Source: a virus. Taken from it: DNA of 29,646 nucleotides. Positions 5,290 through 8,318 of this stretch are shown in pieces (positions within the stretch are counted from its first letter, which is position 1; each line of letters opens with the position of its first letter). A program made the position numbers and the translations under genes. Where the stretch lies: positions 1 through 29,646 of IMG/VR virus record IMGVR_UViG_3300025674_000258; one strand, 5' to 3'. Under the pieces are notes generated by a model that did not search any database, was not told where the DNA came from, and worked only from the letters and a program-made list of their open reading frames with translations.

Positions 5290-5759
5290 TGAAATACCTA
5301 GCAATAATAAGTATAAACATATTAAGTGGCATCAGTCTTGCCACTTTGATAATAATGGGTGTAACATACCTAAGTTTCAAAAATACGAATGTATTCCAAG
5401 ATGTTAAAATAGAGATTGTTAACAATCCTGTAAGTGGACACGATGATATTGTGTTTCATATGCAAGGCTTCAAACCATATGAATGCGCAAGCACAGATGT
5501 TTATGGTGAAGCATTTTCAGCAGACGGAAGTCATAGTCATAAACTAACCACCTTTACAAAACAAGCCATACGCAATACTCGTCCAGGTGTAGAAGTTCCT
5601 AATGCTTGGGCAATGGAACGACCAAAAGATATGAACAAAGGTGGCAGATATTTTGTCACTATGACTGGCGAGTTTATATGCAATCACTGGGCATTCAAAG
5701 TTCCTAAAACACAATCTTATCACAACATACTTTTAGATGCATTACCAGTTGACAACTAA
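5289..5759 (+). CDS. Single-span membrane-anchored protein, unknown
   Basis: A 156-residue protein. The N-terminal stretch YLAIISINILSGISLATLIIMGVTYL (3-28) is one membrane helix, leaving a soluble domain probably outside the cytoplasm. That domain has three cysteines (CAST, FICNH) and no motif I recognise. Coupled to the upstream membrane protein. There is no lipobox, so an uncleaved anchor is more likely than a lipoprotein. Confidence 0.7.
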   Translation: MKYLAIISINILSGISLATLIIMGVTYLSFKNTNVFQDVKIEIVNNPVSGHDDIVFHMQGFKPYECASTDVYGEAFSADGSHSHKLTTFTKQAIRNTRPGVEVPNAWAMERPKDMNKGGRYFVTMTGEFICNHWAFKVPKTQSYHNILLDALPVDN

Positions 5760-5764
5760 ATTAA

Positions 5765-5780
5765 CTTATATTAATATAAG
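5765..5780 (+). repeat. Perfect 16-bp palindrome
   Basis: CTTATATTAATATAAG is fully self-complementary. It follows a stop codon by a few bases but has no T-run, so it is a weak terminator at best; it could be a protein-binding site or mRNA-stabilising hairpin. Confidence 0.5.
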
Positions 5781-5787
5781 TAATAAC

Positions 5788-5843
5788 AGTGGACTAATAG
5801 GGATCATCCCACTATAAAAATTCTGCCCCCTCAACCAACGAGG
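5788..5843 (+). promoter_or_regulatory. Possible preQ1-I-like riboswitch leader of the QueD-like gene
   Basis: AGTGG (5788-5792) pairs with CCACT (5809-5813), preceded by another C, and is followed at once by ATAAAAA (5814-5820). This is the layout of preQ1-I aptamers, in which an AGAGG/CCTCT stem is followed by an A-rich tail. A loop GGG (5800-5802) could pair with CCCCC (5826-5830) as the pseudoknot. CCTC (5829-5832) can also pair with the ribosome-binding site GAGG (5840-5843), giving an obvious on/off switch. The gene behind it belongs to the preQ0/preQ1 pathway family. The loop is longer than usual and the pseudoknot is not canonical. Confidence 0.4.
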
Positions 5844-5849
5844 TAAAAT

Positions 5850-6302
5850 ATGGCTTACTATAGCACAAAAACTTACGGGCACAACATTGGTTTAAGTGCC
5901 TGTTTCAGACAACCTAATGCAGATCATTCTCATTGTAGTTTGCTGCATGGTTATAGTTTGCAGTTTAAATTTACATTTGCTGCAAATGAACTAGACAACA
6001 AAAATTGGGTTGTCGACTTTGGCGGATTAAAACCGCTTAAGGCTTGGTTAGAAGATAACTTTGATCACAAAGTTGTGCTTACTGATACTGATCCTCATCT
6101 AAATGATTTTTACGAACTTGAAGAAAAAGGATTGGCTGCACTAACTATTTTAGACGGTGTAGGTGTAGAAAGATTTGCATACCATGCATGGAAAAAAGCA
6201 GACAGTCTTGTACGTGAAATGACTGATAATCGCTGTTGGTGTGTAGAAGTGGAATGTGCAGAGCATGGAGCAAACAGTGCAATCTACAAAGCAGTGGACT
6301 GA
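5850..6302 (+). CDS. queD: QueD-like 6-carboxytetrahydropterin synthase / PTPS family
   Basis: A 150-residue T-fold enzyme of the family that converts dihydroneopterin triphosphate to 6-carboxy- or 6-pyruvoyl-tetrahydropterin, an early step to 7-deazaguanines (preQ0, queuosine, modified DNA). Visible motifs: TYGHNIGLS (zinc His11), HCSLLHGY (catalytic Cys29, His33), VVDFGGLK (54-61), FDHKVVL (Asp72-His73) and AEHGANSAIY (Glu138). The usual CxxxHGH reads HGY, so one zinc ligand position is Tyr35. No other que or folE gene is in the window. GAGG lies six bases before ATG. Confidence 0.85.
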   Translation: MAYYSTKTYGHNIGLSACFRQPNADHSHCSLLHGYSLQFKFTFAANELDNKNWVVDFGGLKPLKAWLEDNFDHKVVLTDTDPHLNDFYELEEKGLAALTILDGVGVERFAYHAWKKADSLVREMTDNRCWCVEVECAEHGANSAIYKAVD

Positions 6303-7083
6303 AACCAAAGAAGTACGTAAAGCTCGCAAAAAGCTAGAAAAAGCAGCTAAAACTGAGGTACAGGAAACTGTACCTACTTCTTTTGATAAAAAATATGTTT
6401 TTTGTTTAAAATGGGGTGATAAGTATTCTCCTGATTATGTAAACAAGTTGCACAATATGGTGCGTAGAAATCTCACAATAGATTATGAGTTTATTTGTTT
6501 TACGGAAAACTCAAAAGGTATTGATCCAAGAATAACAACTTGTCCGTTACCTAACAAGAATCTAAGTGGTTGGTGGTTTAAACCTTGGTTTTTAAGCAAC
6601 GAACTAGGTGTAAATGGCACAGGACTTTTTTTAGACCTAGACTTGATCGTTTTTAAAAATATTAATAAACTTTTTTCCTATGAACAAGATAGTAACTTTG
6701 TTATTATTAGAGATTTTAATCGTGTACATAGAGCCAGTTGGGAAAAAATGAACAGTAGTGTGTTCAGATTTAAAATAGGAAAGCATTCTCATTTATATGA
6801 CGAGTTTGACAAAAACAGTGCTAATCAAAGTAGAAGGTATCCTGGAGACCAAGATTGGATGTATGCTAATATTAAAAAGTTTACCTTCTGGCCAAACGAA
6901 TGGATACAAAGTTACAAATGGGAGATGCGAGGTAGACAGTATTTAGGTCTAGTAAATGGAAAACGCAACTTTACAAAACCAGGCGAACCAGTTGTAAAAA
7001 ATGAAACTAGTATTGCAGTATTTCACGGATATCCAAACATGCACGATTGTATCGATGAATGGCCAAGAAGACATTGGTATTGA
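6256..7083 (+). CDS. GT-A-type glycosyltransferase
   Basis: A 275-residue protein. After a lysine-rich N-terminal helix (about 1-38) comes a GT-A-like fold: YVFCLKWGDKYSPDYVNKL, then the nucleotide-sugar and metal-binding DxD in LFLDLDLIVF (Asp127/Asp129), RRYPGDQDWMYAN and VFHGYPNMHD. These match small phage and bacterial glycosyltransferases that add sugars to surface or DNA-linked acceptors. The start overlaps the QueD gene by 47 bases; ATG 6265 is an alternative. The acceptor is unknown; the nearby SGNH and sulfotransferase-like genes make surface-glycan decoration plausible. Confidence 0.75.
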   Translation: MQSMEQTVQSTKQWTETKEVRKARKKLEKAAKTEVQETVPTSFDKKYVFCLKWGDKYSPDYVNKLHNMVRRNLTIDYEFICFTENSKGIDPRITTCPLPNKNLSGWWFKPWFLSNELGVNGTGLFLDLDLIVFKNINKLFSYEQDSNFVIIRDFNRVHRASWEKMNSSVFRFKIGKHSHLYDEFDKNSANQSRRYPGDQDWMYANIKKFTFWPNEWIQSYKWEMRGRQYLGLVNGKRNFTKPGEPVVKNETSIAVFHGYPNMHDCIDEWPRRHWY

Positions 7084-7113: not shown

Positions 7114-7287
7114 ATGATTAGAACTTATATGATGTATGCAGGTCTTACTTTTCTTGGCTACGAGTATGGCGAGACAGAGGACGCAGTGATTTTTAGAACG
7201 GTGGCTAAGTTTGGTCATCCAAACAAATGGAATGAAGATGAATATACAGCAAAACTTATTCCACATCCACAAGAGGCAGTAGCATGA
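7114..7287 (+). CDS. Small protein of unknown function upstream of uvsE
   Basis: A 57-residue protein (MIRTYMMYAGLTFLGYEYGETEDAV...PHPQEAVA). The TGA overlaps the uvsE start (ATGA), so the pair is coupled. Because the promoter would start the message at about 7115, the ATG at 7114 may be leaderless or the real start may be ATG 7129 or 7132. No motif recognised; acidic with a few aromatic residues. Confidence 0.6.
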   Translation: MIRTYMMYAGLTFLGYEYGETEDAVIFRTVAKFGHPNKWNEDEYTAKLIPHPQEAVA

Positions 7288-8318
7288 CTAAACGCATAGG
7301 CTTTGCTTGTAAGTATCTACATTACAATCAAAATCAACCTAAGAAACTATTAGAAGAAATACAACGTCCACTTACAGAAAAGTGTACCACAGTTGCATGG
7401 CTAAATAGACAAACAAAGGACGTTGCAGAAGAACGCTTGTGGGACATTATGGTTCACAACGCAGCAGCAGCAAAAAGGTTAGTTGAATATGTGGGAAGCC
7501 TTCCTCCAGAACTTAGAATGGTCCGATTGGGTAGCAATCAGCTTCCTTGTGCTACCGAGTCTAGCTGGATGTATTTTTGGTCTAAGCCTGACGTGGTGGC
7601 GTACTGCGAGAAACACTACGCAAAGGTCGGTGAAGCAGCCAGACGCTTGGATGTTAGACTCTCAATGCATCCCGGACAGTTCACGGTACTTGCAAGTGAC
7701 AATCCAGAAATCGTTGAAAGGAGTATAGATGAGTTCGAATATCACATCAATCTCGCGAGGTGGATGGGCTACGGTAAAAACTGGCAAGACTTCAAATGTA
7801 ACGTCCACATCTCAGGACGCAAAGGTCCAGCCGGTATCATTGACGTCCTTCCAAGACTGTCTCCAGAAGCACGAAACTGTATTACTATCGAAAACGACGA
7901 AAACTCATGGGGACTCGATGCCAGCCTCGAGTTGGCTAAACACGTACCGTTGGTGGTAGACATTCATCACCATTGGGTTAAAACAGGAGAATATATTGAA
8001 CCAGATGACGACCGCATTAGAACAGTTATTGATAGTTGGCGTGGTGTGCGTCCTGCTATACACTATAGTTTATGCCGTGAGGATTACTTACAAGATGCTT
8101 CGCCAAGTGTACGACCAGACATGGACACGCTACTTGAATCCTCATACAAAAAACAAAAACTGAGAGCACACAGTGACTACTGTTGGAATACCGCATGTAA
8201 TGAGTGGGCCTTGTCACACTGGGAGTGGGCTGACATCATGGTAGAAGCTAAGATGAAAAACTTGGCTAGTTCGCAACTCTACAGTATGACTGAAGAATCA
8301 AAAAAACTTGCAGCATGA
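7284..8318 (+). CDS. uvsE: UV damage endonuclease UvsE/UVDE
   Basis: A 344-residue TIM-barrel endonuclease that nicks DNA 5' to UV photoproducts and starts alternative excision repair. Family motifs are in order: KRIGFACKYLHYN (3-15), MVRLGSNQ (79-86), SMHPGQF (127-133), NVHISGRKG (173-181), ITIENDE (200-206), VVDIHHHW (224-231) and HSDYCWN towards the C terminus; these hold the His and Glu/Asp residues that bind metals. Full length. Driven by the promoter at 7080. Bases about 7500-7960 are clearly richer in G+C than the surroundings, a sign of recent acquisition or recombination. Confidence 0.95.
   Translation: MTKRIGFACKYLHYNQNQPKKLLEEIQRPLTEKCTTVAWLNRQTKDVAEERLWDIMVHNAAAAKRLVEYVGSLPPELRMVRLGSNQLPCATESSWMYFWSKPDVVAYCEKHYAKVGEAARRLDVRLSMHPGQFTVLASDNPEIVERSIDEFEYHINLARWMGYGKNWQDFKCNVHISGRKGPAGIIDVLPRLSPEARNCITIENDENSWGLDASLELAKHVPLVVDIHHHWVKTGEYIEPDDDRIRTVIDSWRGVRPAIHYSLCREDYLQDASPSVRPDMDTLLESSYKKQKLRAHSDYCWNTACNEWALSHWEWADIMVEAKMKNLASSQLYSMTEESKKLAA

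Follow-up and report, generated by a model that had tools for sequence, protein, structure and literature searches.

A pseudoknot in a phage mRNA leader is known from phage T4, where gp32 binds such a structure in its own message and represses its own translation. Small H-type pseudoknots also lead genes of the 7-deazaguanine pathway in the case of the preQ1-I riboswitches, which are characterized by a specificity cytosine directly 5' of the 3' strand of the helix P1 (PMC11625349). The preQ1-II (RF01054) and preQ1-III riboswitches are pseudoknotted sensors of this same pathway as well, but their folds are larger and contain more helices than the element described below. Riboswitches are described as a rare feature of phages (PMC9004378), and a scan of phages with a tool that recognizes known classes yielded none (PMC7029224). 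Phage DNA that contains 7-deazaguanine bases can be protected by them from restriction (PMC6884629). The titles and abstracts listed for phage queD, preQ0/preQ1 and phage riboswitches in open PMC contain no description of the element.

The locus lies in the IMG/VR virus record IMGVR_UViG_3300025674_000258, of which positions 1-29,646 were analyzed (29,646 nt, hereafter the window). A 45-nt H-type pseudoknot at 5788-5832 is flanked by a sigma-70-type promoter on its 5' side and a QueD-like gene on its 3' side (Table 1), and the upstream ORF ends at 5759. As the promoter is directly upstream of the element, the transcript is expected to start within a few bases, before the element, and the queD message would thereby carry the pseudoknot at its very 5' end. 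The earlier note on this DNA had located the element correctly to within a few bases, with the region relevant for expression extending to 5849. A perfect palindrome, CTTATATTAATATAAG, covers positions 5765-5780 and overlaps the -10 hexamer; it could be an operator or a chance occurrence in AT-rich DNA, and the first ~10 bases of this region differ in most homologues. Elsewhere in the window, four consecutive tRNA genes are found on the plus strand at 438-773.

Table 1. Coordinates of the features in the window (P, helix; L, loop; A1, alignment of 45 diverse homologous leaders)
Feature	Position	Strand	Remarks
Sigma-70-type promoter	5749..5777	+	TTGACA 5749-5754, 17-nt spacer, TAATAT 5772-5777; 10/12 consensus letters
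P1, 5' strand AGUGG	5788..5792	+	pairs with 5809-5813; compensatory changes
L1, ACUAAU	5793..5798	+	ACU nearly invariant, remainder variable in length (A1)
P2, outer 5' strand AGGG	5799..5802	+	pairs with CCCU 5828-5831; covarying helix
P2, inner 5' strand C5805 A5806	5804..5806 (including U5804)	+	pairs with U5824 G5825
L2, U5807 C5808	5807..5808	+	C5808 invariant in A1; putative role
P1, 3' strand CCACU	5809..5813	+	pairs with AGUGG 5788-5792
L3, AUAAAAAUUC	5814..5823	+	A5820, U5822 and C5823 invariant (A1)
P2, 3' strands U5824 G5825 and CCCU 5828-5831	5824..5831	+	C5826 and C5827 unpaired
Possible SD-masking hairpin, CCUC 5829-5832 with GAGG 5840-5843 (SD)	5829..5843	+	predicted fold
QueD-like gene (6-carboxytetrahydropterin synthase family)	5850..6302	+	PF01242 1e-15; phrog_2389 1.6e-43
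Glycosyltransferase-like gene	6256..7083	+	usual queD neighbor, 171/268 loci

Judged by the window sequence alone, the feature is not beyond chance. The folding z-score of the leader (-0.40) is no better than that of shuffled sequences, which says little because thermodynamic folding was applied to what is a pseudoknot, and with Rfam, at gathering as well as permissive thresholds, no family rises above background in the window. Judged by the sequences of its homologues, however, the feature lies far beyond chance. Homologous leaders occur in more than 200 IMG/VR contigs with 106 distinct sequences, and their carriers are well over a hundred uncultivated phages that are mostly marine. When 80 related queD genes were drawn from IMG/VR by protein alone and without regard to the leader, 57 of the 77 genes with enough upstream DNA were preceded by a recognizable version of the element. 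Conversely, two DNA patterns, in which most of the second helix consisted of free letters, were run on IMG/VR without any gene in mind, and among the matches listed 276 of 281 copies were positioned directly 5' of a queD homologue. Of the five exceptions among these matches, two lie at contig ends, where one is followed by the beginning of a queD-like protein and the other by no readable gene, and a third is separated from the QueD-like gene by a 55-aa ORF. The remaining two (L284 and L317) were set aside as probable chance.

The alignment A1 shows P1 to be paired in 92% of the cells; for the core of P2, in which columns 16-22 pair with 41-47, the value is 92.6%. Covariation in P2 reaches 0.867, compared to 0.05-0.234 for partners shifted by 1-3 columns, and two P2 positions each show all four of the Watson-Crick pair types. 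The two helices that the earlier note had read from a single sequence, namely P1 and the pairing of the loop GGG at 5800-5802 with C5828-C5830, are thus both present, and both covary strongly once the homologous phage leaders are aligned. The inner purine-pyrimidine pair of P2 occurs in A1 either as A-U (24 rows) or as G-C (21 rows), with zero exceptions, and it is retained in 103 of 103 distinct parsed sequences of a wider set; one of the search patterns, that for the subtype with a short L3, fixed this pair as A-U, whereas the other left both sides free. The model R2, for which 32 sequences were used and the subtype of the window was left out, still recovers the window with 46.9 bits (E 2.4e-13), the next match having 9.5 bits. 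The model R1 gave one strong match per contig on 30 of 30 long contigs, with a large gap below.

The plan shared by the homologues comprises a P1 of 4-5 bp and a P2 in which a U.C mismatch stands between 2 bp and another 3-6 bp. In the window, the conserved mismatch is U5804.C5826, with C5805-G5825 and A5806-U5824 pairing around it. In the loops of the homologous leaders, ACU, C5808 and UC are nearly invariant, and the pairs G4-C27 and G5-C26 of P1 are invariant in A1. As the search patterns fixed the letters GG, the ACU region and the UC before P2, they account for part of the invariance at these positions, but not for the covariation of the outer P2 pairs. The surroundings are also regular: a promoter hexamer pair lies 5' of the element in 120 of 152 leaders, mostly 3-16 nt from P1, and the end of P2 is usually 5-12 nt from the SD and 15-30 nt from the start codon. 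The association of the element with queD is old, as QueD proteins with as little as 39-43% identity to the QueD of the window carry the same RNA core.

The assignment of the downstream gene to the QueD family, already proposed in the earlier note, holds at the levels of PF01242, phrog_2389 and structure: the AlphaFold model (pLDDT 90.9) matches solved QueD/PTPS structures, including that of E. coli QueD. Cys29, Asp72, His73 and Glu138 are kept in the phage family (the window and 198 other distinct homologues), while Phe/Tyr19 and Tyr35 replace two histidines of E. coli QueD that we take to be zinc ligands. With His26/His28 nearby, the metal site may have been rebuilt, as far as can be judged from the sequences, and since these presumed zinc ligands are replaced, the chemistry and product of phage QueD are not certain. 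The glycosyltransferase-like gene that follows is probably co-transcribed with queD. In 14 loci, including L115, its place beside queD is taken by a gene that by eye resembles KDO-8-phosphate synthase (KdsA), and in the window a UvdE-type UV-endonuclease gene lies close to queD (7284-8318).

Further genes of the pathway were surveyed in 29 long contigs that carry the element. Homologues of folE and of queE were each found in nine of them and a queuosine-precursor transporter in two; NCBIfam supports the names QueE, FolE and transporter, with the curated cut-off being passed by the transporter only. A QueE-like protein is encoded by the next gene after queD in 10 of 268 loci, and in L371 and L372 queD and then a queE homologue stand behind one copy of the element. 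For QueC, there were only two weak partial matches, which are PP-loop proteins (L322:1342-2196 in minus-strand numbering, and L321), and the TGT family gave zero matches in the 29 contigs, for which reason a DNA modification by phage TGT/DpdA was discarded as an explanation. As the contigs may be incomplete, the absence of queC, TGT or the transporter is weak evidence. The gene set, as annotated from sequence, points to a synthesis of 7-deazaguanines as far as 7-carboxy-7-deazaguanine, and we infer that the host completes the pathway beyond this compound. With folE, queE and the queuosine-precursor transporter present in part of these phages, a ligand from the 7-deazaguanine or pterin pathway is plausible.

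The phage folE genes have a second conserved leader element of their own (L368:826-853, minus strand), which is present in 51 of 53 distinct leaders in L453-L531. It consists of a covarying stem of 4-6 bp with a 6-nt loop (AUCCNC in 49) and a subsequent AAC(A)UCGGAG that includes the SD. Stem covariation together with the loop-SD pairing amounts to 0.478, compared to at most 0.132 when slid. The UCC of the loop could pair with the GGA of the SD but does not vary. No Rfam match above background was obtained for the folE leader element.

The queD element is not obligatory, since it is missing from 20 of the 80 related queD genes. In L048, L055, L059, L062 and L066, a promoter and an SD precede queD without a pseudoknot in between, and these loci represent natural versions that lack the element. 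On the QueD tree, its presence and absence require ~8 changes, at least 7 of which are forced by well-supported branches. Scanning 84,980 species genomes of bacteria and archaea with a stringent pattern gave zero copies, and blastn detected no similar leader in isolate phages. Of the 80 genome loci that include a QueD relative, only those on two contigs of one marine MAG (L376:2936-2983 and L378:2936-2983) have the element; the MAG is labeled Rickettsiales bacterium MED657. These contigs may be phage contigs that were binned with their host, and thus may hint at the host. A bacterial origin of the element is rejected on the basis of the genome scan and the occurrence in a single MAG.

How does the element compare with known RNAs? 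The earlier note had proposed a preQ1-I-like riboswitch, and there are indeed several similarities: a small H-type pseudoknot leads a gene of the 7-deazaguanine pathway, the 5-bp P1 is closed by G-C pairs, an A-rich stretch follows P1 (ATAAAAA in the window, directly after the 3' arm), and the free, invariant C5808, just 5' of the 3' arm of P1, occupies the position of the specificity cytosine of preQ1-I. In most homologues, this cytosine is preceded by AC, as in the types II and III of preQ1-I. In contrast to preQ1-I, however, the first base of L1 is an A (43 of 45 rows of A1; A5793) and not the uridine U6, L3 ends with UC (5822-5823, all rows of A1) where preQ1-I has an adenine that reads the edge of the ligand, L1 is long and variable and L2 has 2 nt, which is the reverse of the preQ1-I loop plan, and P2 contains the conserved U.C mismatch and the covarying purine-pyrimidine pair. 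RF00522 (cut-off 39 bits) matches neither the window nor its homologues, although the B. subtilis control was found in the window search. The preQ1-II model gave nothing in the window and, in homologues, background scores of 14.6 and 15.2 bits (cut-off 47); preQ1-III gave zero matches in both, and no other Rfam family exceeded background in the homologues at gathering or permissive thresholds. The element may work like a preQ1-I riboswitch, but on present evidence from sequence comparison it is not a member of that class.

A masking of the ribosome-binding site had also been suggested, by pairing of CCTC with GAGG. Such a pairing is possible in the subtype of the window, where the hairpin and P2 exclude each other because they share bases of the P2 3' strand, and the sister subtype has an equivalent hairpin (ACUCC/GGAGU) that likewise overlaps this strand. 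Family-wide, shuffled segments are just as complementary to the SD as the real ones, and masking as a general feature of the family was therefore rejected. A constrained-fold estimate, in which the accessibility of the SD rises from 0.47 to 0.72, is biased, since blocking nucleotides mostly frees the SD.

Taken together, we consider it rather probable that the element is a cis-acting RNA, with a translational riboswitch of a class absent from Rfam as its most likely nature; this reading agrees with the 5'-end position, with the short distance to the SD and with the conservation of unpaired bases where P1 and P2 meet. In such a mechanism, a small molecule would bind at the junction of P1 and P2 and pair with C5808 as preQ1 does with its cytosine in preQ1-I (PMC11625349), and by the same analogy the bound ligand would stabilize or lock P2, which in turn would change the access of ribosomes to queD. 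The ligand would probably be guanine-like, i.e. preQ1, preQ0 or 7-carboxy-7-deazaguanine, or else an intermediate of the pterin pathway. In the subtypes with a possible masking hairpin, that of the window and its sister, a ligand-locked P2 could open the SD, and the ligand would be an activator, whereas feedback logic predicts a repressor instead. Both directions are kept in play as the SD complementarity is at the level of shuffled segments in the family as a whole. The more specific proposal of a new riboswitch class that is confined to phages as far as searched, sets the dose of QueD as a 7-deazaguanine/pterin sensor, and holds a guanine-like ligand between P1 and P2 where it is read by C5808, is in our estimation evenly balanced. 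Against any riboswitch it can be argued that the element is found at queD only, while metabolite sensors are often reused, in this case at folE, queE or the transporter. The queD genes without an element, the chance level of SD complementarity and the changed zinc ligands of QueD are further points of this kind.

The restriction to one gene, with one copy per genome, is what an autogenous operator would explain well, i.e. a pseudoknot to which the QueD-like protein, or another phage protein, binds and thereby represses its own translation. This is the main alternative, which we regard as unlikely, and its best argument is the separate, different leader that is conserved before folE in such phages. 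The T4 gene 32 leader would be the precedent, being a pseudoknot in a phage mRNA leader that controls one gene, as is predicted for the element. The strongest objection is that the RNA core remains constant while QueD diverges down to 39-43% identity; moreover, those queD genes that lack the element are scattered among those that have it. Somewhat more doubtful is a divergent, fourth type of preQ1-I that binds preQ1 via an altered pocket, a possibility whose share is counted within the riboswitch reading. The H-type pseudoknot, the GG-closed P1, the invariant cytosine with the preceding AC of types II and III, and the gene of the right pathway would all agree with it, but it would have to accommodate the failure of RF00522, the A in place of the L1 uridine, UC instead of adenine before P2, and the different loop plan with a 2-nt L2 and a long L1.

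It is also conceivable, though we consider it improbable, that the pseudoknot acts constitutively at the 5' end, protecting the message or fixing the level of translation without any ligand or protein. Its position at the transcript 5' end right after the promoter and the existence of natural versions without it (the five loci named above) would be compatible with such a function, but the conserved unpaired bases and the strictly kept mismatch exceed what a plain stabilizing stem needs. Finally, a pistol-like self-cleaving ribozyme (RF02679) came into view as there, too, the loop of a P1 hairpin takes part in a pseudoknot and UAAAUA follows, and a single homologue, L072, gave a sub-threshold match of 11.4 bits over P1 and UAAAUAC. 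With a cut-off of 34.5 bits, and as the element has neither P3 nor the cleavage-site loop, the ribozyme was rejected and can be regarded as extremely improbable.

With its 45 nt and its strong covariation, the element is small enough for direct testing. If QueD binds to it, a new autogenous operator would be at hand. If the ligand is preQ1, preQ0 or 7-carboxy-7-deazaguanine, the element would represent a further solution for the recognition of such compounds beside the three known preQ1 classes. And if it is a true riboswitch, phages would sense metabolites of the 7-deazaguanine pathway with an RNA of their own; they may thus carry a metabolite sensor that has not been described before.
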